Notes under the pieces: model-generated
The model's database searches: none
Seen by the model: only the letters and a program-made list of their open reading frames with translations
Told to the model about the DNA's origin: nothing
Translations under genes and position numbers: made by a program
In this document: piece by piece, positions 3,352 through 50,317 of the stretch
Layout of the letters: the number at the start of each line of letters is the position of its first letter
Numbering within the stretch: position 1 is the first letter of the stretch
IMG/VR virus record: IMGVR_UViG_3300008267_000011
Span: 1 to 64,000 of that record
From: a virus
Strand: one strand, 5' to 3'
Length of the DNA: 64,000 bases

Positions 3352-3699
3352 ATGGATAAAGATAGTATTTTATTTGACGACAAGTCCTTTAGTGACTTGT
3401 TACGTGACGTATACCAAAACACAAAAAAGAAAGAAAATCAGATCAATGGTCTTATTGATCAACTTAAAGCATTGGTACGAAATGTGACTGATGCATCAAT
3501 GATGGTTCCTTTAATTAAAGAGTATCTTGAGATTTCCGTAAAGAATGATGATAACTTAGTTAGGTTAACAGCAATCATTCAGAGGTTGCTCGTTACCGGT
3601 TCAAAAGATAATAAAGAAGGTGGTGAGTTAGGATTGACTGACCAAGAGAGAGCTCAATTACTATCAGAAGCCCAAGAGATTTTGGACAAATCTAAATGA
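3352..3699 (+). CDS. Hypothetical protein at head of baseplate block (115 aa)
   Basis: A helical, charged protein with no recognised motif. It is the first gene behind a candidate late promoter and overlaps the first gp5-like hub gene by four bases (ATGA). That makes a virion or assembly role likely, for example a baseplate assembly chaperone or minor baseplate protein. The sequence contains a long helix through residues 20-70 and an acidic C-terminal helix (LTDQERAQLLSEAQEILD). Confidence 0.65.
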   Translation: MDKDSILFDDKSFSDLLRDVYQNTKKKENQINGLIDQLKALVRNVTDASMMVPLIKEYLEISVKNDDNLVRLTAIIQRLLVTGSKDNKEGGELGLTDQERAQLLSEAQEILDKSK

Positions 3700-4688
3700 G
3701 TAGCTTATCAACAGGATTAGGTGAATTTATCAACACGACATCCCCGTCGCAGCAACCACCTACGTCCCCTACTCGCATATTTACCGCACACGTTTTAGAA
3801 GTCGTCAAGGACGAAAACTCACCTTACTACGATGAGAAACTAGGTCCTGCATGCATAGGCTCCATAAAGGTTAAGCTAATAGAAACACAGTATAATAAAT
3901 TCGAAGATCAACACTACTATAGAGCCTTTCCTTTGGATAGAGGTGATTACATGCTACCTCTTCCAGGAGAAGCAGTTGTGTGCGTAGTTGCACAAGGAAA
4001 CTACACTTCAGGCGCCGGTGGCACTTATATCGATCTTTTGTATTACGTGGGAGTGGTTTCTATGGAGCAACAGCTTACACTCAACACAGCACCGTTTTTA
4101 AGCTCCGACACCTACCACATCGATAGTGGACTAGCGTCGTTTGTAAAGCAGCTGTCTATAGATGTAGCTGTTTTTGCAAAGAGGTTTGATGGTAGGATCG
4201 ATATTGAAGGTGGTGCGTTCAAAAAAAACATAGGAGCAACAAAATCGACAGCGGGAGATACTGTGTTAGAAGGACGTTTTGGAAGCTTAATAAAGCTAAC
4301 AAGTAATTCTAAGGATAGATGGAGCACAGAACAAGTTTCAAATACTAAAGCTGGATTGCCCACAGACCCTTTTATAGTAATGAAGGCGTCGAGAAGATTT
4401 TTAGCAAACGAATCGTTTGAGGAGTTTGGATCAACCGCAATAGACGATAACCCAAATACAGACGATACTAGTGTCTATATAACAACGACGCAAAATATAC
4501 CTGCAATACTAAGTTGTTCGGAAAGATTGTCGTCTTGGAACTACGAGCAGGTACTAGGCTCGGTAGACGGTGAAGTCGATGAAGGAGCTGCTAATTTACA
4601 AACATTATACGGAGGAGGTTATGATTCAAATGCCAAAATCACCCTTAACCTAGTAGGATCGATTAACGTCAAAAAAGCAGGAACTTAA
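3696..4688 (+). CDS. Baseplate hub protein, gp5-like OB module without lytic domain
   Basis: The protein has 330 residues. It begins MSSLSTGLGEF and carries the same module as the next two genes: a strand-rich block with FTAHVLEVVKDENSPYYDE, then an FPLDRGDYMLPLPGEAVVCV motif (about 84-103) like the OB-fold of T4 gp5. A shared end follows, NLQTLYGGGYDSNA. It stops there, whereas its two paralogues continue into cell-wall hydrolase domains. T4 gp5 is the trimeric hub under the spike. The paralogy is seen directly; the gp5 assignment is by motif and context. It may trimerise with its neighbours or form another hub layer. Confidence 0.75.
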   Translation: MSSLSTGLGEFINTTSPSQQPPTSPTRIFTAHVLEVVKDENSPYYDEKLGPACIGSIKVKLIETQYNKFEDQHYYRAFPLDRGDYMLPLPGEAVVCVVAQGNYTSGAGGTYIDLLYYVGVVSMEQQLTLNTAPFLSSDTYHIDSGLASFVKQLSIDVAVFAKRFDGRIDIEGGAFKKNIGATKSTAGDTVLEGRFGSLIKLTSNSKDRWSTEQVSNTKAGLPTDPFIVMKASRRFLANESFEEFGSTAIDDNPNTDDTSVYITTTQNIPAILSCSERLSSWNYEQVLGSVDGEVDEGAANLQTLYGGGYDSNAKITLNLVGSINVKKAGT

Positions 4689-4699
4689 TAATTATAGCT

Positions 4700-6214
4700 A
4701 TGAGTTCGTTATTCAAGGGATTATCGGAGTTTGTCACTTCATTGCCACAATCTCCACCGACACAACTACGCAAGAATGACATATTTCCAGCGTATGTGGT
4801 TGATGTCGTATTAGACGAAATCTCAGAATATTACAATGGACCAGAGAGCTTGGGAGCTGTACGCTTTAAGCAATTGCCAAATGATACTACAAAATCAGAA
4901 AACGTCACTAATAAAATAGCCTATCCGCTAGATAGAGCTAACTTCGTGCAACCTTTAGCTGGTGAGCAAATTGTGTGCGTATTGTTATTTGACGCAGAGG
5001 CAAGGCAGCGTTACTTTTACATAACAACCGTTAGCACAGAGCAAACAGCAGCTGCTATAATATCTCCGTTTCTTGGTACCGATTTAACAATACTCAAGTC
5101 AGATGGATGGGCAACACCAGGCACTGCCGAAAAGCGATTTGATGCAAAAAATGGTTATGGAATTGAGTTTCTAAAGGCAAGAGTGTCTCAAGAAAAGCTA
5201 CGAGAGGGAGATAAGGTGCTTGAAGGTAAGTTTGGAGGGGTTATTAAGTTCACACACACAATAGGAAAGGCGGGAATATGGGATGCTCAAGATCAAATTA
5301 CCAATCTACCAACGCTATCTAATTTATTTGGAACAACAACTACTAGCGATGGTGATCCTATGTTAATTATCAAAAGTGCTTTACGATCTAGTAAATTTGA
5401 ATTTGAAGATGATGATGTAAATGTAGATGAGAGTAGTATGTATCTAACTACTACGCAAACTATTCCGTTAGAGATAAGTTGTGCTCAATTAAAGAGTTTT
5501 GAAGTTGAGCCAGAAGGCATATTGCTAAGTGCTCTAAATGATGAAGATGCTGCTAACTTGTCTAATATATTTGGTGGTGGATTTGATCCAAACGCATCGA
5601 TAATCAAACCGGAAAATGTGACACTAACAGGAACACCACAAGTGCAGTTGGTTCAAGGAGGTGGAAGTGGAGTGTTTGGAGGTGGTGCAACGGGAGAGAA
5701 CGGTAAATTACCAAATGAAGCATTAAAGTCTATTGGAATAGGTAACCATAGATTGGCTATAGAAGCAGCAGATGCGTGGATACAAATGGCTGCAGCTGCG
5801 CAAGCAGATGGAGTTACGCCAGCACTAACAGATTCTTACCGTACGTTTGAATCGCAGTACGAAATATTTGACTGGGATCTATATGTAGCTACGGGAGGAT
5901 CGTTGAGTGATACAACCCCTACCAAAAACGCAAAGAAAGCTAAAAAGGGCTCGAACGGAGAGACTGCAGCTGCATTCCCAGGTACATCGAATCACGGTTT
6001 AGGAAAAGCGGTTGATACCAAAGGAGGGGAGTTCCAAGCTTGGCTAAGAGCAAACGGTGTACGATTTGGTTGGTCATGGAAAGAGGGTAGGAGAGTTAAT
6101 GAAGCATGGCACTTCACCTACCTACCAGGCGAAACTGAAACATGGACATCGTACAGACCTGATGGAAAATACGGAGGACAAGCTCTACCGGTTTGGCCCA
6201 ATGACTTCACTTAA
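4700..6214 (+). CDS. Baseplate hub gp5-like with M15 peptidase domain
   Basis: The protein has 504 residues. Residues 1-300 repeat the gp5-like module (MSSLFKGLSEF; YPLDRANFVQPLAGEQIVCV; FGGGFDPNAS). After a glycine-rich linker (GGGSGVFGGGATG), residues about 345-500 form a peptidase M15/VanY-type domain. The signs are SYRTFESQ, NHGLGKAVD (zinc-binding H and D near 431 and 438) and EAWHF near 470 with the third zinc ligand. M15 enzymes cut D-Ala-D-Ala or L-Ala-D-Glu bonds of peptidoglycan peptides, so this hub would open the peptide cross-links during injection. T4 gp5 instead carries a glycosidase lysozyme. Confidence 0.85.
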   Translation: MSSLFKGLSEFVTSLPQSPPTQLRKNDIFPAYVVDVVLDEISEYYNGPESLGAVRFKQLPNDTTKSENVTNKIAYPLDRANFVQPLAGEQIVCVLLFDAEARQRYFYITTVSTEQTAAAIISPFLGTDLTILKSDGWATPGTAEKRFDAKNGYGIEFLKARVSQEKLREGDKVLEGKFGGVIKFTHTIGKAGIWDAQDQITNLPTLSNLFGTTTTSDGDPMLIIKSALRSSKFEFEDDDVNVDESSMYLTTTQTIPLEISCAQLKSFEVEPEGILLSALNDEDAANLSNIFGGGFDPNASIIKPENVTLTGTPQVQLVQGGGSGVFGGGATGENGKLPNEALKSIGIGNHRLAIEAADAWIQMAAAAQADGVTPALTDSYRTFESQYEIFDWDLYVATGGSLSDTTPTKNAKKAKKGSNGETAAAFPGTSNHGLGKAVDTKGGEFQAWLRANGVRFGWSWKEGRRVNEAWHFTYLPGETETWTSYRPDGKYGGQALPVWPNDFT

Positions 6215-6223
6215 CAATATAAC

Positions 6224-7897
6224 ATGAGTAGCTTAAATACAGGATTAGGAGAATTTTTTGCTGGAGCCTTTGGTAGCGATGGGGTGAAAAACGAAGTATC
6301 GCATCGTCTGTTCTTTGCGCATGTTTTAGATATAGTTAATGACGAATTTAGTATATGGTACGATGGACCGGATAGTATAGGAGCAGTTAGAGCGAGGATA
6401 TTGATGACAGGCTACAACAAATACGAAGATGAGCAAGATACATTACTGTACCCACTAGACCGATCTTACATTAGAGTACCATTTCCTGGAGAGCAGGTTG
6501 TTGGCATAGTCAGCTTTGGTCCTGCAGTAGCAGGAAGATACCTAATGAGATACTATTACTGGAAGATATTAACAGTTGATCAAAATATAACATATAGTGG
6601 ACAACCGTTTACAGGCACAGACCCATATAGCATTAAACCAGGCCTAAAGATTATGGTAGATGTTTCTGCCGAAGCAAAGAGATTTGAGACTAAGTTGCCA
6701 TATGACAAAGCATTGTTAGACGACAAGGCAGTTAATCAAAAGACTAGGCAAGGTGAGCGTACGGTAGAAAGTCGTTTTGGAGCTATGATAAAGTTCACAA
6801 GCACTCCCGATAAAGTAGGCATGTGGAACAATTCACAAATAAATAATCAAATAGCTTCGAGTGTAGGAGATCCTCTTGTAATCATAGGTGCTAATCCAAA
6901 GACATCGAATACTAATGAACTAACGACTCGAGACTTGGATGTGGATTTAGGGAGTAACATATACCTAGGGTCAACACAGAACTTACCGACTAAGCTAGGA
7001 TGCTCAACAAAGCTACATAGTTGGAATGTTGACGTCAGAGCAGGTAAGCTACAAGAAGGATTAGATGAGACAACAAATCTCCAAACACTATTTGGAGGTG
7101 GATTTAATCCAGAAAACCAACTAGCAATTGCTCTAGCTGGATCAATAGGATTACCAGGACAATCAGGAGGAACGCTTAGTCCAGTTGCAGGTATAAACGA
7201 AGCACAGGCTGCAGGTATACAGGCAATTAGCTTAAAGCTAAAGGAAGCGGGATTTGGTTGGCAATCTGTTGCAGCCATCGTTTGTGTATGCGGAAAGGAG
7301 TGCGGGCTTGTACCAGTCAACGAATCAAGCTACTCAGGAACAAGCCCAGCTGGCTTAAGAAAGCTATTTGGAAAATACTTAACAAATTATACAGACGAGC
7401 AACTATTACAATTACGTACAGACGATGTTTTATTCTACGATACGATATACGGATACTTGACGCAAAGGGGTAGAGATGCTGAAAACACTTCACCTGGAGA
7501 TGGTTATAAGTATCGAGGTCGAGGATATAACCAAATAACATTCAAAAGTGCGTACAGAAAGCTATCAGACTACACCAAGACGATTTCAACAGGATATCGA
7601 GATTACGTAAGTAACCCGGACCTATTAAACGATGTGGAAAATGCAGCAATCGGAGCAGCTTGGTACTTCGACAGAGCTGTGAGCCAGCCAGCTAAGTATA
7701 GAGAATACTCTGGAGAGGCAGTTAATCCAAAGCAGGGTACTAACCTAGATGTGCTTATCCACTACTACGTAAATGCAAACGCAGGAATGGGAAATGATTG
7801 GAATAGCGACGTTGTGATAACTAACTATAACAAGGCCAAAAATTGGGAATCAGCTGTTGTTAATTTCTTCAATAGCAATCCTCAACTAATGCAATAA
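6224..7897 (+). CDS. Baseplate hub gp5-like with GH19 muramidase-like domain
   Basis: The protein has 557 residues. The N-terminal 300 residues are the third copy of the gp5-like module (MSSLNTGLGEF; YPLDRSYIRVPFPGEQVVGI; FGGGFNPENQ). The C-terminal 200 residues resemble glycoside hydrolase family 19 (chitinase/lysozyme). A catalytic-type Glu lies in CGKECGLVP near 355, and the YRGRGYNQITFK block is near 430. ENAAIGAAWYFDRAV follows. GH19 phage endolysins cut the glycan strand of peptidoglycan. Together with the M15 hub this gives glycan and peptide cleavage in one baseplate. Nine bases separate it from the previous gene. Confidence 0.85.
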   Translation: MSSLNTGLGEFFAGAFGSDGVKNEVSHRLFFAHVLDIVNDEFSIWYDGPDSIGAVRARILMTGYNKYEDEQDTLLYPLDRSYIRVPFPGEQVVGIVSFGPAVAGRYLMRYYYWKILTVDQNITYSGQPFTGTDPYSIKPGLKIMVDVSAEAKRFETKLPYDKALLDDKAVNQKTRQGERTVESRFGAMIKFTSTPDKVGMWNNSQINNQIASSVGDPLVIIGANPKTSNTNELTTRDLDVDLGSNIYLGSTQNLPTKLGCSTKLHSWNVDVRAGKLQEGLDETTNLQTLFGGGFNPENQLAIALAGSIGLPGQSGGTLSPVAGINEAQAAGIQAISLKLKEAGFGWQSVAAIVCVCGKECGLVPVNESSYSGTSPAGLRKLFGKYLTNYTDEQLLQLRTDDVLFYDTIYGYLTQRGRDAENTSPGDGYKYRGRGYNQITFKSAYRKLSDYTKTISTGYRDYVSNPDLLNDVENAAIGAAWYFDRAVSQPAKYREYSGEAVNPKQGTNLDVLIHYYVNANAGMGNDWNSDVVITNYNKAKNWESAVVNFFNSNPQLMQ

Positions 7898-7929: not shown

Positions 7930-8895
7930 ATGGCAGATAAAGAAAAGCTGGATGGTAACGGTAAACCAATAGGATCCCAAACACAGACGATAAACACGAG
8001 CGGACCAGCAGGAGCAACAGCCAACTTAACAGCTACTGTTGATACAGGTGAAGGAGCAGCTGCAGGTCAAGGAATAGGAGAAAAGATAGTTCTCGAAGAT
8101 AAGGTATATACGTTGCAACTACAAAACGCAGATCCCGTACCAGATAAAGGGTTTGAAGAGTTGCAAATACAAAAGGGAACTTATAGGAACGATGTAAAAG
8201 ATGGAAAGTCTTCTATTCTACTAAACTCAAGTAGGGTTGTGATTAATAGTAAAGACGACTATACAATCATAGCAGGCCAAAAGGGAGTTTCTATTTCATC
8301 ACCAAATAAAGTGAATCTAGATGCAGACCAAACAATATGCTTATATGGTGACCAAGGTTTATTTTTTGGTATTCCAAACAAAGGAATGGCTAAAGGAGTA
8401 CAACCTTCGAAGGATCCAAAGTACGCTGGTCCAAGCTACCTTAAAGAAGGCAAGAAGCTAAAATCAGTACCTGCAGACAATAATGACTATGAGCCATTGG
8501 TATTGGGATTGAGATTGGCAAACTGGCTCAATGATTTAATAATGACATTGAAAACAGCTGTCATTGTAGCTCCGATGGGAGATGCTAGTTTTCGTGAAGA
8601 TGCTCAATGGGATTTAGTGGCGTTAGAGTCTCGTATCAAAGACATGCTATCAAACTACGCTTACATCGATGGTTGGTCTCATGAAGAAGCTGGAGACGTG
8701 CCAAGTCCGCCAAAAGAAGAAGATTTAACAAGACCAAAACCAGAACTAACCGTTGATGTATCAGGCTTAACTATACAGATTCCGTCCGAGTTGTTTAATA
8801 CACAACCAACAGATCCAATGGCAACTGCAGCTGACTACTTTACAACAGCTGATGTGCAAAGCTTACCGCAACAAAACAACGAATCTAAAAACTAA
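7930..8895 (+). CDS. Putative tail spike / needle beta-helix protein
   Basis: The protein has 321 residues. The N-terminus is Gly/Thr/Ala-rich and disordered. Residues about 75-150 are short repeated strands (SSILLNSSRVVINSKDDYTI, then IAGQKGVSISSPNKVNLDAD), like the stacked beta-helix of gp5 C-terminal or VgrG-type spikes. A helical segment and a proline-rich acidic tail follow. Coming directly after three gp5-like genes that lack a gp5C beta-helix, it could be the separately encoded spike. This is inference; it could also be another hub component. Confidence 0.55.
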   Translation: MADKEKLDGNGKPIGSQTQTINTSGPAGATANLTATVDTGEGAAAGQGIGEKIVLEDKVYTLQLQNADPVPDKGFEELQIQKGTYRNDVKDGKSSILLNSSRVVINSKDDYTIIAGQKGVSISSPNKVNLDADQTICLYGDQGLFFGIPNKGMAKGVQPSKDPKYAGPSYLKEGKKLKSVPADNNDYEPLVLGLRLANWLNDLIMTLKTAVIVAPMGDASFREDAQWDLVALESRIKDMLSNYAYIDGWSHEEAGDVPSPPKEEDLTRPKPELTVDVSGLTIQIPSELFNTQPTDPMATAADYFTTADVQSLPQQNNESKN

Positions 8896-9737
8896 TGGCA
8901 ACAACACTAGCAGGATATACACCAGGAACAGCAGGAGCTAATTGGTTTGTTTCAAATGAAATGAAAACGAGGTTTGATGAGATGGCAAAGGCGATAGCAA
9001 TGGCTATCCCAAGCACGTTAATCTCACTATCAGACGGCTACATATCGCGATATGAATTGATAAGGCAGCTTGCAACTAAGTATGGATACGCCGACCAAGC
9101 ACTCAAAGATAAGGTTACAAACATACCAAGTAATGGTACAGTGACACCGGAGGAGTGGAATGCTCTGGAGTCGTACTTTAATGACGACGTAAGCTACGGT
9201 AGTCAAAAACCAGCAGCATATAAGTACATTGTGCATCCGTATTTGCAAGGAAACAATTCATTTGTATCTGAGGTTCCTAATAAACCAAATAGCGATCTAC
9301 GGAGAATTGGCACATATGTTAAAATAAAAAGCGGTGGCTTTGGCGCACAGTCGCAAGGAAATTGGAACGTTGCAGAATGGATGTTAAAAAATAGCCATAG
9401 ATATGGATTCTTTTTCGTAGGGCCAATAGACAGCGATTATCTATACCAGCCTAATTGGACGTTTGGTGAAAATTTCCAAAGTCAATTAGATACGTACGGA
9501 AATCGTATATGGATTAAATGGGCTGCGGATAACTTTAGATTTGGAGGTTTTAATTTAGACATAAACAACGTTGACGATAGAATAAAGCAAGAATTGCAAC
9601 AAAACACAATGCCTACGCTAGATCAAGTTATACAAAAGCTTAATAGCGTATCCAACCCTTCAAACGAAAGCATAAAGTCCGCTGTAGATGCTGCTAAATC
9701 ATCGGCACCATGGCTATACTTAGCAGAAAAGTTTTAA
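8895..9737 (+). CDS. Hypothetical baseplate-region protein with EF-hand-like loops (280 aa)
   Basis: It starts on the last base of the preceding stop. Two segments resemble calcium loops followed by a helix: SDGYISRYELIR (46-57) and SNGTVTPEEWNA (79-90). Near 156-173 the segment WNVAEWMLKNSHRYGFFF resembles the helix-turn before the active site of M15 peptidases. The downstream zinc His is not clear (YQPNWTF instead of EPWHF), so if related it is probably inactive. Its place among hub genes suggests a structural role. Function is not established. Confidence 0.6.
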   Translation: MATTLAGYTPGTAGANWFVSNEMKTRFDEMAKAIAMAIPSTLISLSDGYISRYELIRQLATKYGYADQALKDKVTNIPSNGTVTPEEWNALESYFNDDVSYGSQKPAAYKYIVHPYLQGNNSFVSEVPNKPNSDLRRIGTYVKIKSGGFGAQSQGNWNVAEWMLKNSHRYGFFFVGPIDSDYLYQPNWTFGENFQSQLDTYGNRIWIKWAADNFRFGGFNLDINNVDDRIKQELQQNTMPTLDQVIQKLNSVSNPSNESIKSAVDAAKSSAPWLYLAEKF

Positions 9738-12704: not shown

Positions 12705-13091
12705 ATGAAATTGAGTCAGTTTAAATCGATGCTGCGTGAACTTATTCGAGAAGAAGTACAAACAGCAGTACGTACTGAGATGAAAAAACTTAACGAAGGA
12801 AGAGTGCCTGCTAAAGCAAGTCAAGCAACTTCAAGACCACCACTCTATCCTCAACAAAGAACAACTCCTTTGGTAACCTTAGATGAACCTTTTACTAATG
12901 TAGGAGGTGCTCTAGGAGATTTGCTTAATGAAACAGCAATGAATATGCAAGGATTTGGAGAAGAGATTTCTGAAGAGCCAAATCCTGATTTTATGGGAGT
13001 GAGTGGCGCATCAACAAACGCCTTTGTAAAAGACTACTCTGCACTGTTGAAGAGATCGGAAGAACTGAGCACTGGCAACTTTAGACCCTAA
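12705..13091 (+). CDS. Small virion-associated candidate with SQF-LRELIREE N-terminus (128 aa)
   Basis: ATG 12705 is preferred over the in-frame ATG at 12618. The latter would overlap the upstream gene by 58 bases and put the TATTTAT element inside the coding region. The N-terminus MKLSQFKSMLRELIREEVQT is an amphipathic helix. It resembles that of the 46.2 kb protein (RIKESQFRALVRREIKALLE) and contains a possible prohead-protease site (I-R-E). The rest is low complexity and probably disordered (APEEPNPDF-like). It precedes gp25 directly, sharing one base. A structural or assembly role is likely, specifics unknown. Confidence 0.65.
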   Translation: MKLSQFKSMLRELIREEVQTAVRTEMKKLNEGRVPAKASQATSRPPLYPQQRTTPLVTLDEPFTNVGGALGDLLNETAMNMQGFGEEISEEPNPDFMGVSGASTNAFVKDYSALLKRSEELSTGNFRP

Positions 13092-13510
13092 TGGCGTATA
13101 TAATACAAGTAAACCCTGTTGATCTAGAGACTAACGTAGCACTTGGTCTCGATCTTCCTATGAACGATAGCCATGGTGCTAGGTTTAAACAGAATTACTT
13201 ATCGATTGATCAAGCAGTAGCTAACGCAAAGAACCTACTAAAGACTGAGCCAGGAGAGAGAGCAATGTTGCCTCAATTTGGATGTGGATTAAGAAAAACC
13301 TTATTCGAACAACTAACTGATCAATCTATTGAAGTTTTACGAGATCGTATACAACAAAACTTTGCAACTTTTTTACCTTACATATTTATACATGAGCTTA
13401 ACATCACACCTAAACCGGACGAAAACAAACTGCTTGTGCAGTTGACAATAAGCCTTAGTGAATTAGGATTGGATCGTAGAGCGATACTAATTGAAACTAC
13501 AAATGGCTAA
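13091..13510 (+). CDS. 25: Baseplate wedge protein, gp25-like
   Basis: A 139-residue member of the gpW/gp25 family. The recognisable core runs from SIDQAVANAKNLLKTEPGER (about 38-57) through MLPQFGCGLRKTLFEQ to the C-terminal strand pair (LLVQLTISLSELGL). T4 gp25 is the small wedge subunit that nucleates the tail sheath and binds gp6 and gp53. Here gp6 follows immediately with an eight-base overlap, the canonical gene pair. Confidence 0.88.
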   Translation: MAYIIQVNPVDLETNVALGLDLPMNDSHGARFKQNYLSIDQAVANAKNLLKTEPGERAMLPQFGCGLRKTLFEQLTDQSIEVLRDRIQQNFATFLPYIFIHELNITPKPDENKLLVQLTISLSELGLDRRAILIETTNG

Positions 13511-15401
13511 ACTCATAAACAAACAAACAGATATTAAGTATGTAGGTAGAGACTTCGACTCCTTTAAGCAGGGGTTAATTGAATTTGCAAAAGCATACTA
13601 TCCTGATACGTACACAGACTTCAACGAAGCCTCACCAGGAAGCTTGTTTGTAGATTTAGCAGCGTATGTAGGAGATGTAATGTCGTATTACACCGACTAT
13701 AATTTTAGAGAAAACTTTCTACAGTACGCTCAAGAGAAGCGTAACTTGTTAGCAATGGCAGGAGCTTTTGGCTACATACCTAAGTTATCGGTACCATCAA
13801 TAGTAGCCCTGGATGTATTTCAGTTGCTACCTCCAACAGGAACAGGAACGAACACAGCACCAGACCTTTCTTACGGGTTAAAAATTAAAGAAGGTATGGA
13901 AGTACGTGCCGATCAGCTAGGGGTAAATTTTTTAACAACAACCAACCTCGACTTTACAATTGATACCAAAGAATCTCCAACCGAGATATCAGTGTACAGC
14001 TACGATGCCGGTACTGGAGCTATCAACTATTACTTAGCAAAGAAGACCGTCAAGGCTATTAGCGCTAGAACAAAAACACAAACTTTTACAATAGATAGTT
14101 CAACGAGATTCTTAAAATTAGCAGTAGAGGACGCTACAGATCCTATTATAGGAATACAAAGCATCACAGACGCAGATGGGAATCTCTGGACACAGGTACC
14201 ATATCTTGCACAGGATACTATCTTTGAGCGAGTAGAAAACACCACATTCAACGACCCAGAATCAGCAACGTACAGCTCAGAAACACCATGGTTATTAAAG
14301 TTAAAAAAGGTGCCACGTAGGTATGTTGTGCGTGTAACTGAAGATGGACTAGAGGTACAATTTGGAGCAGGCACGTCATCAAACCCTGACGAGGAGCTAC
14401 TAGCAACCCCGGAACAGATAGGATTGATCCTACCAAACGGAAAAGAGGATTTGGACTATAGCTTAGACCCTTCCAATCCGCTGATCACAAGCACATACGG
14501 ACTTGTGCCGTCAAATACAACGTTAACAGTGACCTACCTAGTAGGAGGAGGTACGCAAGCTAATGTACCATCTAATAGCATCACCACGGTAATATCCACA
14601 GATACCACAGAAACGTCGTTACCGCTTACAACACCAACTCTAAACAATGCAATACTACAGAGCATTGCAATCAACAATCCTGAAGCAGCAAGCGGTGGGC
14701 GTAACGAAGAGACCGTAGAGGAGATTAGACAAAACACACTAGCACAATTTGCATCGCAAAATAGAGCTGTAACACGAGAGGATTACATCATGCGTGTATA
14801 CAGCATGCCATCCACATACGGCTCAGCTGCAAAGGCATTCATAATGCCAGACGAACAACAAAACATTGGAACAAGTGAAGTTTTAGATACAGTAGCCAAT
14901 CCATTAGCTTTGAATTTATATCTATTAGGATACGATTCAAACAAAAATTGCACAACTCTTAATAGAGCAGTAAAGGAGAATGTAAAGACGTACCTAAGTC
15001 AATATAAAATGTTAACTGACAGCATCAACATTAGAGATGCGTATGTAATAAACATAGGAATCAAGTTTGACATTATTCCGTTGCCTAACTTCAATGCAAA
15101 TGAGGTGTTGTTAAACGCTATAGCCGTGGTTAAAAGGTATTTCGATATTGATAGATGGCAAATCTCACAACCAATAGTAATTAGCGATTTATACAACGAA
15201 TTATTTAATGTGGATGGAGTGCAAAGCGTTTCCTCTTTAAGGATTGTTAATCTAGACGATGAGTCATTAGGTTATAGTGGAATCGTCTACGACATAAACG
15301 CAGCAACTAGAAACGGCATAATATACCCAAGCTTGGATCCGTCTATATTTGAAGTTAAATTCCCAAACACCGATATACAAGGTCGTATAACAAACTACTA
15401 A
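13503..15401 (+). CDS. 6: Baseplate wedge protein, gp6-like
   Basis: ATG at 13503 (632 aa) is preferred to the TTG at 13491. The N-terminal region (DIKYVGRDFDSFKQGLIEFA and SPGSLFVDLAAYVGDVMSYY) is the signature of T4 gp6/baseplate J-like wedge proteins. The middle is beta-rich, and residues about 400-630 carry the J-domain core (EDYIMRVYSMPSTYGSAAKA). gp6 dimers form the inner ring that links wedges and triggers sheath contraction. The length is close to T4 gp6 (660 aa). Confidence 0.9.
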   Translation: MAKLINKQTDIKYVGRDFDSFKQGLIEFAKAYYPDTYTDFNEASPGSLFVDLAAYVGDVMSYYTDYNFRENFLQYAQEKRNLLAMAGAFGYIPKLSVPSIVALDVFQLLPPTGTGTNTAPDLSYGLKIKEGMEVRADQLGVNFLTTTNLDFTIDTKESPTEISVYSYDAGTGAINYYLAKKTVKAISARTKTQTFTIDSSTRFLKLAVEDATDPIIGIQSITDADGNLWTQVPYLAQDTIFERVENTTFNDPESATYSSETPWLLKLKKVPRRYVVRVTEDGLEVQFGAGTSSNPDEELLATPEQIGLILPNGKEDLDYSLDPSNPLITSTYGLVPSNTTLTVTYLVGGGTQANVPSNSITTVISTDTTETSLPLTTPTLNNAILQSIAINNPEAASGGRNEETVEEIRQNTLAQFASQNRAVTREDYIMRVYSMPSTYGSAAKAFIMPDEQQNIGTSEVLDTVANPLALNLYLLGYDSNKNCTTLNRAVKENVKTYLSQYKMLTDSINIRDAYVINIGIKFDIIPLPNFNANEVLLNAIAVVKRYFDIDRWQISQPIVISDLYNELFNVDGVQSVSSLRIVNLDDESLGYSGIVYDINAATRNGIIYPSLDPSIFEVKFPNTDIQGRITNY

Positions 15402-31017: not shown

Positions 31018-31941
31018 ATGGACATAAACCAAGCTCAACTTAAACAGATAGTAGATGGACACTTAGGCGCAGGAACTCCTGGCAATAAGGGAGAAACTGC
31101 ATACTACTGTCCATTTTGCAGTCATCACAAGAAGAAGCTGCAAGTGAACTTTGTGTTGGAGAAGTTTCACTGTTGGGTATGTAATACTAAGGGAAGCTCT
31201 ATAGCTAACCTGCTCAAGAAGAGTAATGCAGCCAAGCACCTGATACAGAAGGCAATTGAGCTTGGAACTAGGAGATTTAGTATTCCATTAACAGAAGTTA
31301 GATCAACACAATTAACACTACCAGAAGAGTACATTCCTATGTGGAAAGCGAGTCCAAACAGCCCACACTTTAAGAATGCGCTACACTACCTACTAAACGT
31401 AAGAGGCTTGACTAAGCATGATATTCTCAAGTATCAGATAGGCTACTGCGAGACTGGTGAGTATGGAGGAATGGTTATCATTCCAAGCTACGATGAGCAT
31501 GGAGTTGTTAACTTCTTCACAGGAAGAAGCTTCTACCAAGAAGCAGGTCGTAGACACAACAACCCAGACGTATCCAAGGATATCATCGGATTTGAGAACC
31601 TAATAGACTGGTCTCAGCCAATCACCTTAGTAGAAGGTGCATTTGATGCAATATCAACAAAAAGAAATGCAATTCCGTTGTTTGGTAAGATGATTCTTAG
31701 TAAACTGCAAATAAAAATAATTGAACAAAGCGTTAAGCGAATCAACATAGCACTCGATCCAGATGCACTACCAAAGGCTGTAGAGGCTATTGAGTCGTTT
31801 ATCAATAATGGTGTCGATGTTCGATTAGTTAAACTAGATGAGGATCCTAATGACACAGGATTTGTGGATATGAGACCAAAGGTCGATGAGGCAACTGCAA
31901 TCGATTTGTTTGATTTGATATCGTTAAAAATGGCTATATGA
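31018..31941 (+). CDS. DNA primase, DnaG-like with zinc finger and TOPRIM
   Basis: The protein has 307 residues. The N-terminal zinc-binding motif (CPFCSHHKKKLQVNF, then FHCWVCNTKG, about 28-60) recognises primer start sites in DnaG-type primases. The TOPRIM domain (about 200-300) has LVEGAFDAIS with the catalytic Glu, and IALDPDALPKA in place of the usual DxD. It is shorter than bacterial DnaG and resembles gp61-type phage primases. It makes RNA primers for lagging-strand synthesis with a DnaB-like helicase not seen in this window. It overlaps the SbcCD gene by four bases. Confidence 0.88.
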   Translation: MDINQAQLKQIVDGHLGAGTPGNKGETAYYCPFCSHHKKKLQVNFVLEKFHCWVCNTKGSSIANLLKKSNAAKHLIQKAIELGTRRFSIPLTEVRSTQLTLPEEYIPMWKASPNSPHFKNALHYLLNVRGLTKHDILKYQIGYCETGEYGGMVIIPSYDEHGVVNFFTGRSFYQEAGRRHNNPDVSKDIIGFENLIDWSQPITLVEGAFDAISTKRNAIPLFGKMILSKLQIKIIEQSVKRINIALDPDALPKAVEAIESFINNGVDVRLVKLDEDPNDTGFVDMRPKVDEATAIDLFDLISLKMAI

Positions 31942-46900: not shown

Positions 46901-48475
46901 ATGTCAGAAAAGACCTTAAAAGAGATCATTAAGGAGGAGTACGTTAAGTGCGCTACTAATCCTGGGTACTTTATTAACAAGTACTGCATGATCCAACATC
47001 CAACGAGAGGAAAGATACCTTTCCACTTATACCCATATCAGGTAACTACGTTGGATGACTTTATGAAGTTCGATAGAACAATCGTACTAAAGTCTCGTCA
47101 GCTTGGCATCAGTACGCTTATTGCAGCTTATAGTCTATGGTTGATTCTTTTCCATAGCGATAAGAACGTGCTCGTAGTAGCGATTGATCAAAACACATCC
47201 AAGAACCTTGTAACAAAGGTTCGAGTTATGTTTGACAACTTACCAAGTTGGTTAAAGATGAAATGTGTAGAGAGTAATAAACTCTCAATGCGATTATCAA
47301 ACGGTTCTCAAATTAAAGCAGTAGCAAGTACAGGAACATCAGGACGTTCAGAGGCACTATCGTTGGTTATTATTGACGAGGCAGCTTTCGTAGATGGAGC
47401 TGAAGAGTTGTGGGCATCCTTGCAACAAACGCTATCTACTGGAGGACAGGGTATCCTATTATCGACTCCAAATGGTACTGGTAACTTTTTCCATAAGATT
47501 TGGATTAAGGCAGAGGCTGGAGAAAATAAGTTTAAGACTATTCGCCTACCTTGGCAAGTGCATCCAGAAAGAGACCAAGAGTGGAGAGATAGGCAAGACG
47601 CTGAGTTGGGTCTCAGATTAGCAGCACAAGAGTGCGATTGCGACTTTAGTAGTTCGGGTAATACACTAGTGGATCCTGGATTAATACAATGGTACTTGGC
47701 AACATATGCACAAGAACCAGTAGAGAGGAGAGGTGCAGACCAAAGCTATTGGTTATGGGAACAACCATCAATGAGCAAGAGCTATATTGTAACAGCAGAC
47801 GTTGCTCGAGGTGATGGATCCGATTACTCAGCATTTCATGTAATTGAACCAGAAAGCTTAACTCAAGTAGCGGAGTTTAAAGGCCAATTAACAACAAAGG
47901 ATTTTGGAAACATGCTAGTAAACGTAGCTACGGAGTGGAATGATGCATTGCTGGTAATAGAAAATAACAACGTAGGTTGGGCAACCATTCAACAAGTTTT
48001 AGATAGAGGCTACAAAAACCTATACTACACATACAAGAGCGACGTATTAGACTCAGACGTCTTCTTAGCAAAAGGATACGACTTAGTCAGCAAGATTGAT
48101 ATGGTTGCTGGATTTACAATGTCACATAAGGTCAGACCACTTGCAATTAGTAAGTTTGATTTGCTAACCCGCGAAAAAAGCATTATATTCAGAAGTAAGC
48201 GATTTATGGATGAGTTAGCTACTTTCATTTGGAAAGAGGGCAAAGCTCAAGCAGCAAATGGATATAATGACGACTTAGTAATGTGTATGTGTCAGGGTAT
48301 TTGGGTTAGAGATACGGCTTTAAGATTAAGACAAGCTGGTATTGATATTACAAAGGCATCTCTTAACGCATCAAAGAGTTCAGCAACGCTTTACTCTGGA
48401 ACAACGTTCAGGTCAAGTAACCCATGGAAGCAGAATGTCCAAGGTCGCGATGAAGATTTAACGTGGTTATTGTAA
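46901..48475 (+). CDS. 17: Terminase large subunit, gp17-like
   Basis: The protein has 524 residues. The ATPase domain has the P-loop variant KSRQLGIST (64-72), Walker B LVIIDE (155-160) and coupling motif LLSTPNG (187-193). The nuclease domain has D in TADVARGDGSDY near 300, E in LLVIENNNVG near 350 and DD in GYNDDLVMC near 455. The motor packages DNA into the prohead and cuts concatemers. The P-loop has Ile-Ser where T4 gp17 has Lys-Thr (SRQLGKT), a form also used by other terminases with the basic residue at the loop start. The leader is A-rich with no TATTTAT, so it is probably transcribed from 46175. Confidence 0.93.
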   Translation: MSEKTLKEIIKEEYVKCATNPGYFINKYCMIQHPTRGKIPFHLYPYQVTTLDDFMKFDRTIVLKSRQLGISTLIAAYSLWLILFHSDKNVLVVAIDQNTSKNLVTKVRVMFDNLPSWLKMKCVESNKLSMRLSNGSQIKAVASTGTSGRSEALSLVIIDEAAFVDGAEELWASLQQTLSTGGQGILLSTPNGTGNFFHKIWIKAEAGENKFKTIRLPWQVHPERDQEWRDRQDAELGLRLAAQECDCDFSSSGNTLVDPGLIQWYLATYAQEPVERRGADQSYWLWEQPSMSKSYIVTADVARGDGSDYSAFHVIEPESLTQVAEFKGQLTTKDFGNMLVNVATEWNDALLVIENNNVGWATIQQVLDRGYKNLYYTYKSDVLDSDVFLAKGYDLVSKIDMVAGFTMSHKVRPLAISKFDLLTREKSIIFRSKRFMDELATFIWKEGKAQAANGYNDDLVMCMCQGIWVRDTALRLRQAGIDITKASLNASKSSATLYSGTTFRSSNPWKQNVQGRDEDLTWLL

Positions 48476-48508: not shown

Positions 48509-50317
48509 ATGGCAGAGAACAATCCTTCTCTATTTCAGAGGTTACAGAGATTGTTTTCCACCGATGTTATCATTCGTAACGTTGGAGGGAATCAATTAAA
48601 AGTTATAGACGTTGACAAAGTACAGTCAAGTGGTAACATTGATCAGAATCGACGTGTAGATCGCTTCTCCCGTATGTATCAAAACATGCCGGGATTTTCC
48701 TATTATCATGGACAGCTTCACTTAGCTACTCGTCTAGAGTTGTTTAAGGACTACGAAGCAATGGACACAGATAGTATTATTTCATCCGCTTTGGATTTGT
48801 ACGCTGATGAGTGTACAACAAAAGATGAGATGGGTAATGTTTTAATTATCCGATCTCCAAATGAAAAAGTACAGAAGGTATTGCATAACTTATTTTACGA
48901 CATTCTAAATGTTGAATTTAACTTATGGCCTTGGACTAGAAACCTACTAAAGTACGGAGACTTCTTCTTAAAACTAAACATAGCAGATAAGTACGGTATC
49001 ATTGGTGTAGAGCCAATGGCAGCTTATGAGATCATTCGTGAAGAAAACTTTGATCCAGAGAACCCATCGAGAGTTAGATTCAAGAGAGATTTTTCTGCAC
49101 TAGCTGCAAGATCTCACGTCGTTAACACAGAGACTGAGGAGTTTGAGAACTACGAAGTTGCTCACTTCCGTCTATTAACGGACACAAACTTCTTGCCATA
49201 CGGACGTTCTCTAATTGAACCTGCAAGAAAGGTTTGGAAACAGATCACTCTAATGGAAGATGCGATGTTGATTCACCGTATTATGCGTGCTCCAGACAAG
49301 CGTGTATTTAAAATCGATATCGGAAACATTCCACCAAACGAAGTAGATGCTTACATGGAAGGAATGATCAACCGTATCAAGAAAGTTCCTTTTGTCGATC
49401 CTGAGACAGGACAATACAACTTGAAGTACAACATGATGAACCTACTTGAGGACTTCTACTTCCCAGTACGTGGAGGAGAGAGTGCAACAGCTGTAGAGTC
49501 TTTGGCGGGTGTACAATATGACAGTATCCAAGACATTGAATACCTTAAAGCTCGTTTGTTGGGATCATTGAAGATTCCAAAAGCTTTCCTAGGATTTGAA
49601 GAAGACATCTCAGGTAAGGCAACACTAGCATCACAAGACTTTCGTTTTGCTAGAACAGTTGAGCGTATTCAACGCATTATTGCTAGTGAGCTTTACAAGA
49701 TAGCAATCATTCACCTTTACTCACAAGGATTTAACGACCAAGACCTAGTTGATTTTGAACTAGAACTGACTGTAGGATCATCCGTATACGAAAAAGAAAA
49801 GGTTGAGATTTGGTCAAGCAAAGTTACCCTAGCTGGTGATATGGTTGACAAAAAGCTATTTAGTCGTCAATGGGTATATGAAAACCTATTTGGTATGTCC
49901 GATGATGAGTTCCTAAAAGAACAAGAGAGAATGGTTCAAGATTACAAATTACAATTTCGTCTTGAGCAGATTAAAACAGAAGGTAATGATCCAGTTAAGA
50001 CAGGAATGTCCTTTGGTACTCCACACGACCTTGCATCACTATATAAAGGTAATGGAGGAGTTCCAGGTGGGTACGATGAGAAGATGCCTGAAGGAGGCTG
50101 GCCAGGTGCTGGACGTCCAGAGGAATCAGGTACATATGGTACACATAAGCACCCATTAGGTTGGGATCCTTTGGGAAACAAAGGAAGAAGGGTTAATGAA
50201 GAGTTTACAATGTTTATTAGAAATTTGAAAGGGAGTGCATTGAAGCAGACAATTGGTAACACATCTGAAATTTCAGAGCCAGATTTGCTCTCAGAGTCTA
50301 ACATTTTAAACGATTAA
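48509..50317 (+). CDS. 20: Portal protein, gp20-like
   Basis: The 602-residue protein follows the terminase, as expected of a T4-type portal. Typical stretches are SRMYQNMPGFSYYHGQLHLA, then LFKDYEAMDTDSIISSALDL (early clip/wing region), YGRSLIEPARKVWKQITLME and AMLIHRIMRAPDKRVFKIDI. YLKARLLGSLKIPKAFLGFE lies in the crown-proximal region. The C-terminal 90 residues are Gly/Pro-rich and flexible. The dodecameric portal is the DNA gate, nucleates prohead assembly and binds the terminase. Confidence 0.93.
   Translation: MAENNPSLFQRLQRLFSTDVIIRNVGGNQLKVIDVDKVQSSGNIDQNRRVDRFSRMYQNMPGFSYYHGQLHLATRLELFKDYEAMDTDSIISSALDLYADECTTKDEMGNVLIIRSPNEKVQKVLHNLFYDILNVEFNLWPWTRNLLKYGDFFLKLNIADKYGIIGVEPMAAYEIIREENFDPENPSRVRFKRDFSALAARSHVVNTETEEFENYEVAHFRLLTDTNFLPYGRSLIEPARKVWKQITLMEDAMLIHRIMRAPDKRVFKIDIGNIPPNEVDAYMEGMINRIKKVPFVDPETGQYNLKYNMMNLLEDFYFPVRGGESATAVESLAGVQYDSIQDIEYLKARLLGSLKIPKAFLGFEEDISGKATLASQDFRFARTVERIQRIIASELYKIAIIHLYSQGFNDQDLVDFELELTVGSSVYEKEKVEIWSSKVTLAGDMVDKKLFSRQWVYENLFGMSDDEFLKEQERMVQDYKLQFRLEQIKTEGNDPVKTGMSFGTPHDLASLYKGNGGVPGGYDEKMPEGGWPGAGRPEESGTYGTHKHPLGWDPLGNKGRRVNEEFTMFIRNLKGSALKQTIGNTSEISEPDLLSESNILND

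Follow-up and report, generated by a model that had tools for sequence, protein, structure and literature searches.

Three tandem paralogs in a viral contractile-tail gene cluster suggest a heterotrimeric central spike with interchangeable enzyme payloads

The 64,000-base stretch of viral DNA analyzed here (the window) covers positions 1 to 64,000 of the 94,415-base IMG/VR record IMGVR_UViG_3300008267_000011. It contains three adjacent genes, A, B, and C, encoding paralogous proteins of the type likely to form the base (hub) of a contractile-tail central spike, and a following gene, D, for the presumed needle. On comparative grounds, it seems somewhat probable that A, B, and C would assemble at a ratio of 1:1:1 into a heterotrimeric base standing on a D homotrimer. 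A heterotrimer had already been put forward in the original prediction for this DNA, and the idea appears to gain support from related loci (each denoted by L and a number), in which slots are stable, the needle can be tripled, copies number at most three, payloads are swapped, and the base genes seem to have been exchanged as a cassette.

Results

The three hub proteins share one module and differ in payload

A, B, and C share an N-terminal module of about 310 amino acids with 34 to 35% identity in pairwise BLASTP (35% over 334 amino acids, E 3e-44; 34% over 328, E 2e-57; 35% over 313, E 9e-43), a resemblance far above chance that marks them as paralogs. No match to A besides the three hub genes was found in the whole 94,415-base record. 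All three adjacent open reading frames foreseen in the original prediction are present (Table 1), as are the MSSLxxGLxEF start and the (Y/F)GGG(Y/F)(D/N) motif in each protein; the third motif said to be common, PLDR...GEQ(V/I)V, occurs in B and C only, with A reading PLDR...GEAVV. The genes are closely spaced, with gaps of −4 to 30 bases between A, B, and C in the eight of nine three-hub loci measured. A ends where the module ends, and B and C run on into putative enzyme domains.

The forecast payload set of none, peptidase, and glycan hydrolase also held. The VanY/M15 match in B scores 50.3 bits against a curated Pfam cut-off of 25, and the protein carries H432 and D439 in SNHGLGKAVD and E468 and H471 in EAWHF (motifs at 430 and 468), residues that presumably bind zinc or act in catalysis. 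C gave no match in Pfam, where the curated cut-off for Glyco_hydro_19 was not reached. It does match PHROG endolysins (phrog_181, E 2.5e-18) and solved endolysins and glycoside hydrolases in the PDB (E 1.5e-8 to 0.05), and its homologs show Glyco_hydro_19 matches below cut-off (L101, E 3.9e-5, 24.0 against 25.5 bits; L014, E 0.011); on this basis, GH19-like is the right label. C contains GKECG (E359) and YRGRGYNQ (430 to 437), which we take to be functional elements of the family. A Foldseek search of viral predicted structures returned three matches at E 0.001, one being a 549-amino-acid protein of an uncultured phage named "Glycoside hydrolase, family 19, catalytic," which indicates that such proteins are already deposited under the name of the payload.

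A one-gene spike appears to have been split

The gp6-like baseplate gene led to three named relatives, Microcystis phage Mel-JY01, Flavobacterium phage immuto, and a 484-kb uncultured phage, each of which has, in the equivalent neighborhood, a single gene with module and needle fused. The homologous proteins are gp116 of immuto and WWT39504 of Mel-JY01, and, unlike the window, both phages keep hub and needle in one gene; in Mel-JY01, an enzyme annotated "putative chitinase" is encoded by the separate next gene. The 115-amino-acid protein encoded directly upstream of A, used here as a synteny anchor, is 45% identical in immuto and 37% identical in Mel-JY01. In hhalign comparisons, the hub profile matched the first part of the one-gene profile (Prob 98.5, E 2e-15) and the D profile matched its C-terminal part (Prob 92, E 6.5e-7), with no match between the hub and D profiles. 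The one-gene spike thus appears to be split here into three base paralogs and one needle. Since the one-gene form is the commonest, we infer that it is ancestral.

Against named phages, tblastn found no relatives with A, matches to the enzyme part only with B, and nothing with D. Viral contigs scanned with A as the sole query yielded none, and a scan of genome contigs gave one needle homolog, on a probably viral 7.9-kb contig of an Actinomycetota metagenome-assembled genome. The D profile had no sequence match in the PDB, and when solved structures were searched with profiles built from the needle and hub alignments, nothing useful was returned. Gene E, which follows the needle, has a faint M15-like look by eye and no family match, as if an M15 peptidase had decayed there; the corresponding gene of L018 (3243-4556) has a VanY-like tail that looks intact by eye.

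Copy number does not exceed three in either part of the spike in the sampled loci

Related loci were gathered from the best 80 of 557 relatives found with a profile of the anchor protein, and needle profiles added more. This sample is not a census, being biased toward near relatives and including near-copies. After 15 loci repeating the contig of another were dropped, 121 loci including the window were classified, and 98 of these were counted as complete. The one-gene form accounts for 61 of the 98 and one hub with one needle for 17, to which L042 adds a like layout. Three hubs with one needle were seen in eight, two hubs with one needle in four, one hub with three needles in four (L023, L118, L119, and L127; L122 has three needles without the hub end), and one hub with two needles in two, of which L021 is cut by the contig end; L092 has a hub only. 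Eleven later contigs contributed L138 to the three-hub type (nine), L140 to the two-hub type (five), and L139 to the two-needle type (two in all). The complete multi-copy loci thus number 20 (nine three-hub, five two-hub, four three-needle, and two two-needle), and none has more than three copies or multiplies both parts.

Slots are stable, and base and needle multiplied independently

A tree of 62 hub modules, which did not include L112 and the atypical hubs of L034, L037, and L042 among others, puts all 26 rows from triple-hub loci into one clade (100/100), rows from two-hub loci into another (100/100), and five hubs from loci with tripled needles into a third (99/95). A focused tree resolved six slot clades (IA, IB, IC, IIA, IIB, and IIC), each supported by at least 100/98 and holding one member per locus. 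In the focused tree, the one-hub locus L137 is weakly nested (82/64) among the triple-hub rows and may be a surviving relative that was never multiplied, or a reversal. Family I (A, B, and C) comprises the window, L004, and L005; family II (A', B', and C') comprises L014, L095, L096, L098, L101, and L138, with L010 for A' and B' only. How the six clades join is not settled by this tree, so that either one tripling with reshuffling or two triplings would fit.

The needle tree (42 rows, several near-copies left out) likewise places the needles of three-hub loci in one clade split into families I and II. Tripled needles lie elsewhere, as D1 (100/99), D2 (100/96), and D3 (98/99), with D3 of L023 placed weakly by D1; the two needles of L109 represent a further duplication (100/99). 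This separation argues that base and needle were multiplied independently. The tested copies are under purifying selection, as judged from ratios of nonsynonymous to synonymous substitution (dN/dS) of 0.03 to 0.13 in all 12 gene comparisons, out of 14, that had measurable dS, covering hubs, needles, and both hubs of the two-hub type; dS was saturated for A and C between the window and L005.

L010 looks like a case in which the base genes were replaced as a unit. Over the stretch that ends at base 4361-4362, some 24 bases inside hub A, its DNA is 84.8% identical to that of L005 and 78.3% identical to the window. Past this sharp break (4338-4361), only a patch of 50 to 60 bases matches, and the hubs are A' and B' of family II. 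Replacement as a unit is expected if base subunits must fit one another.

Payload families switch slots and pass between base and needle

Comparison across loci shows the same payload families in different slots and on either part of the spike. The M23 payload is in slot C of L004, B of L005, and B' of L101. VanY is found in slot B of the window and L016/L095, at the second hub position in L024 and the first in L140, and on needle D1 of L023, with clustering adding the second hub of L130, L131, and L132 and needle D1 of L021. The tail lysozyme Phage_lysozyme2 occurs on hub A in L004 and on needle D1 in both L122 and L127. GH24 is in A' of L138 (Pfam) and, by clustering and alignment, in A' of L101 and C' of L095. 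The phrog_3000 domain, which L014 has in A' and L025 has on its needle, contains an H...SxGC pattern that looks like that of an L,D-transpeptidase (LDT). No PDB entry was matched by payload clusters 7, 9, or 12.

One-hub loci carry a further gene between their hub and needle genes. Among ten such genes tested, GH108 was matched above cut-off in L018, L107, L110, L120, and L137 and below cut-off in L109; those of L118, L127, L021, and L025 gave no match.

An intervening gene lacking a Pfam match occurs in tripled-needle loci too, as if an enzyme had decayed after the needles took payloads. Needles with an unrelated N-terminal domain of about 230 amino acids lie beside a hub with a VanY-type payload (L034:8294-9607, L037:12050-13408, and L042:3740-4990) and may represent a further loading route. 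A third needle payload family, cluster 2 (L118:10359-11741, L122:3833-5206, and L127:5663-7024), gave no Pfam or PHROGs match when the L118 member was tested and may be a new wall-active or binding domain. At L119:3757-4367, the first needle gene ends before its payload, which continues in another frame, either a real break or a sequencing error.

The shared module is likely a central-spike base

A, B, and C lie upstream of gp25- and gp6-like genes, within a baseplate cluster. An AlphaFold2 model of A, built from 50 sequences, had a mean pLDDT of 74.6, rising above 90 in an OB-like domain (residues 31 to 100), and its best Foldseek match in the PDB was a baseplate chain of a Streptomyces contractile injection system (E 0.012). 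Among the 50 VIA rows shown for this model, many that cover the OB domain only are ribosomal or proteasomal proteins; 11 reach at least residue 255, and all 11 are spike-type proteins of phages, type VI secretion systems (T6SS), or contractile injection systems. Their Z scores were 6.6 for P1, 6.3 and 5.7 for VgrG, 6.1 for Streptomyces, 6.1 for AFP, and 5.8 for Anabaena; the remaining rows are T4 gp5 (1k28_A; Z 5.8, 145 residues, root-mean-square deviation 4.9), PVC (5.6), P2 gpV and Mu (5.4), and Algoriphagus (5.3). In a model of the one-gene homolog L045, the segment between residue 1 and about residue 300-312 could be aligned with the spikes of P1 (172 residues, 4.3 Å), VgrG (176 residues, 4.3 Å), and PVC (160 residues, 3.7 Å), with Z of 6.1 to 6.9. 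The absence of other families from these VIA lists proves nothing. DUF2345 appeared in relatives below cut-off only. In the chain, no gp27-like domain precedes the OB region, which starts at about residue 24-28 of A, and B and C align with A from residue 1.

Because of the pattern of individually weak structure matches together with the gene neighborhood, A, B, and C are likely bases of the gp5/gpV/VgrG type. The "gp5-like hub" of the original prediction is therefore favored by the modeled OB domain, the spike-protein alignments, and the gp25/gp6 neighbors, with Foldseek and VIA scores remaining weak, and the separate needle gene D had been overlooked.

Table 1. Features of the spike region in the window, and the intervening gene in related loci
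Feature	Position	Strand	Evidence or remark
Conserved 115-aa protein	3352..3699	+	directly upstream of hub genes, 4-base overlap with A; synteny anchor
Hub/spike-base paralog A, bare, 330 aa	3696..4688	+	OB-fold domain plus proximal beta strands (predicted)
Hub/spike-base paralog B, 504 aa	4700..6214	+	C-terminal VanY/M15 peptidase (predicted)
VanY (PF02557) match in B, residues 350-476	5747..6127	+	Pfam E 2.7e-13
Hub/spike-base paralog C, 557 aa	6224..7897	+	C-terminal GH19-like hydrolase (predicted)
GH19-like region of C, residues 354-484	7283..7675	+	PHROG and solved-structure matches
D, 321 aa, presumed needle (beta-helix), single copy	7930..8895	+	homologous to C-terminal part of relatives' one-gene spikes
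E, 280 aa, gene after needle	8895..9737	+	no family match; weakly M15-like by eye
gp25-like baseplate wedge protein (PF04965)	13091..13510	+	Pfam E 8.2e-11
gp6/baseplate-J-like wedge protein	13491..15401	+	PHROG E 4.1e-23; led to named relatives
Hub-needle intervening gene	L018:1402-2325; L107:8785-9684; L118:6090-7256; L127:1471-2682		

Elsewhere in the window, a conserved 253-amino-acid protein encoded upstream of the spike genes (1341-2102) is annotated as a phosphohydrolase in immuto and is 89% identical in L010. Ten window proteins were compared with PHROGs; a DNA primase (31018-31941), the terminase large subunit (46901-48475), and the portal (48509-50317) were matched, and the other seven had no family.

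Discussion

In the arrangement that we propose, A, B, and C would be the base subunits, each contributing an OB-fold and the first beta strands, and a D homotrimer would form the needle that continues the A:B:C base. Each base subunit would be a slot for an interchangeable C-terminal wall-cutting enzyme, the slot of A being empty, so that a single spike would bring both a putative peptidase (B) and a putative glycan hydrolase (C), presumably delivered to the wall on tail contraction. Loci with two copies would form A2B trimers. A heterotrimer would explain why there are three copies and never four, why a bare copy is kept, and why slots retain their identity as payloads move, and also why a like number is seen when the needle is multiplied instead. 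The fuller version, in which the heterotrimeric spike is obligate, breaks threefold symmetry, carries enzymes slot by slot, arose at least twice (in the base and in the needle), and has slots that form a socket set exchanged as cassettes, has in our judgment about an even chance of being correct. No heterotrimeric phage spike was found in the literature searched, which consisted chiefly of openly available papers.

Alternatively, virions might carry A3, B3, or C3 homotrimers, or a mix of them, as a spike population for different walls, in line with the alternative hubs that the original prediction also suggested. T4 gp5 is a homotrimer, and this known state, a trimer of a single kind of chain, speaks for such an arrangement. 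A triple-stranded helix is described for gp5 in an excerpt of PMC4576200, and, as far as the excerpt of PMC4924876 goes, Serratia VgrG1 and VgrG2 do not mix and were judged unable to form heterotrimers. Two-copy loci, moreover, exist. Nevertheless, homotrimers leave unexplained the ceiling of three in both branches, the retained bare A, and the stable slots in conserved order, and we regard them as unlikely. It could instead be that only some paralogs are structural and the others are carrier copies, for example enzymes that are released but retain the OB module so that they can be loaded. Enzymes as separate proteins are normal in this group, as the GH108 lysozyme gene between hub and needle of one-hub loci indicates, but the hub genes of all slots are under similar purifying selection and A holds no enzyme, which makes this explanation improbable. 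Finally, A3, B3, and C3 could be homotrimeric discs stacked one after another in a single longer spike with D3 at its end; every virion would then hold all three, and the gene order is indeed fixed within a family. However, A, B, and C start alike and hold one common module, one-gene relatives have only one such module, and in the trees the slots of family I are not matched with those of family II according to position (B groups with A' in the 62-module tree; not settled in the focused tree), so that stacked discs appear very improbable.

Several results count against the heterotrimer or the assignments behind it, the Serratia data among them. Seven of the 20 complete multi-copy loci have two copies and need the A2B rule or another explanation. 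In a test of one against two origins of the hub tripling, constraining IA with IIC or IC with IIC, the only pairings tested, was not rejected (approximately unbiased test, p 0.22 and 0.14). The L010 contig stops inside B', and its junction could be a chimeric assembly. Foldseek comparison of the A and L045 models with the PDB gave nothing at E 0.001, and the VIA Z scores of spike proteins (5.3 to 6.9 overall) are all below 8, the level at which single matches are trusted. At the sequence level, Pfam and PHROGs gave no gp5, VgrG, or gpV family for A to C (none at E 0.1 for A; essentially payload families only for B and C). Payload sets were compared in 12 representatives, which are not phylogenetically independent, leaving out identical sets (L096, L098, L119, L127, L132, and L139), loci with at most one recognized payload (L024, L130, and L140), and truncated loci. 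The same enzyme family never occurred twice in a locus, against 1.69 repeats expected (P 0.16, not significant), and strict pairing of glycosidase with peptidase was seen in 6 of 12 (mean 3.85, P 0.10). With labels based on the LDT motif and on weak papain-like resemblance included, the count rose to 8 of 12 (mean 5.13, P 0.044); a value of 11 of 12 (P 0.00085) with labels given by eye, which include SGNH-like, LDT-like, and several cluster labels, is not relied on. Non-redundant or complementary payload sets within a locus are thus suggestive at best.

The proposed heterotrimeric spike can be set beside three known systems. It resembles T4 gp5 in having an OB fold at the base, a wall-degrading enzyme borne by the chain, and a needle of beta-helix type, all three predicted here, as well as gp25/gp6 baseplate neighbors; in gp5, OB domain, lysozyme, and needle are in one chain (excerpt of PMC4576200). 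The window differs from T4 in having three base paralogs, C-terminal payloads of differing families, and a needle in a separate gene. VgrG spikes of the T6SS, "evolved" VgrG proteins included, offer a second likeness, since Vibrio cholerae VgrG1, VgrG2, and VgrG3 are spike paralogs of which two end in an enzyme domain and the third does not. VgrG has gp27-like, OB, and needle parts in one chain. Unlike VgrG, the window has a tandem three-gene phage cassette, and its relatives also triple the needle. A heterotrimer of the V. cholerae proteins has been reported as required (cited in PMC8668125), and Aeromonas dhakensis data in the excerpt of that paper tie the need for a heterotrimer to effectors. 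The V. cholerae set is the nearest precedent for the proposed mode of working. The baseplate of cyanophage A-1(L), with gp25 as spike and gp15 as hub, also pairs two complementary wall activities. A peptidase and an endoglucanase are placed at its tail tip, both on one trimeric hub protein (excerpt of PMC10966104), and not split over different spike paralogs as we propose here.

To our knowledge, structurally characterized phage spikes have threefold symmetry. A three-chain spike, if true, would be a case of natural symmetry breaking by gene duplication and would give each virion complementary wall enzymes without three copies of each. The triplings in different halves of the spike, with their ceiling of three, would amount to a natural experiment relating paralog number to oligomer number, and they bear on whether VgrG spikes work as heterotrimers.

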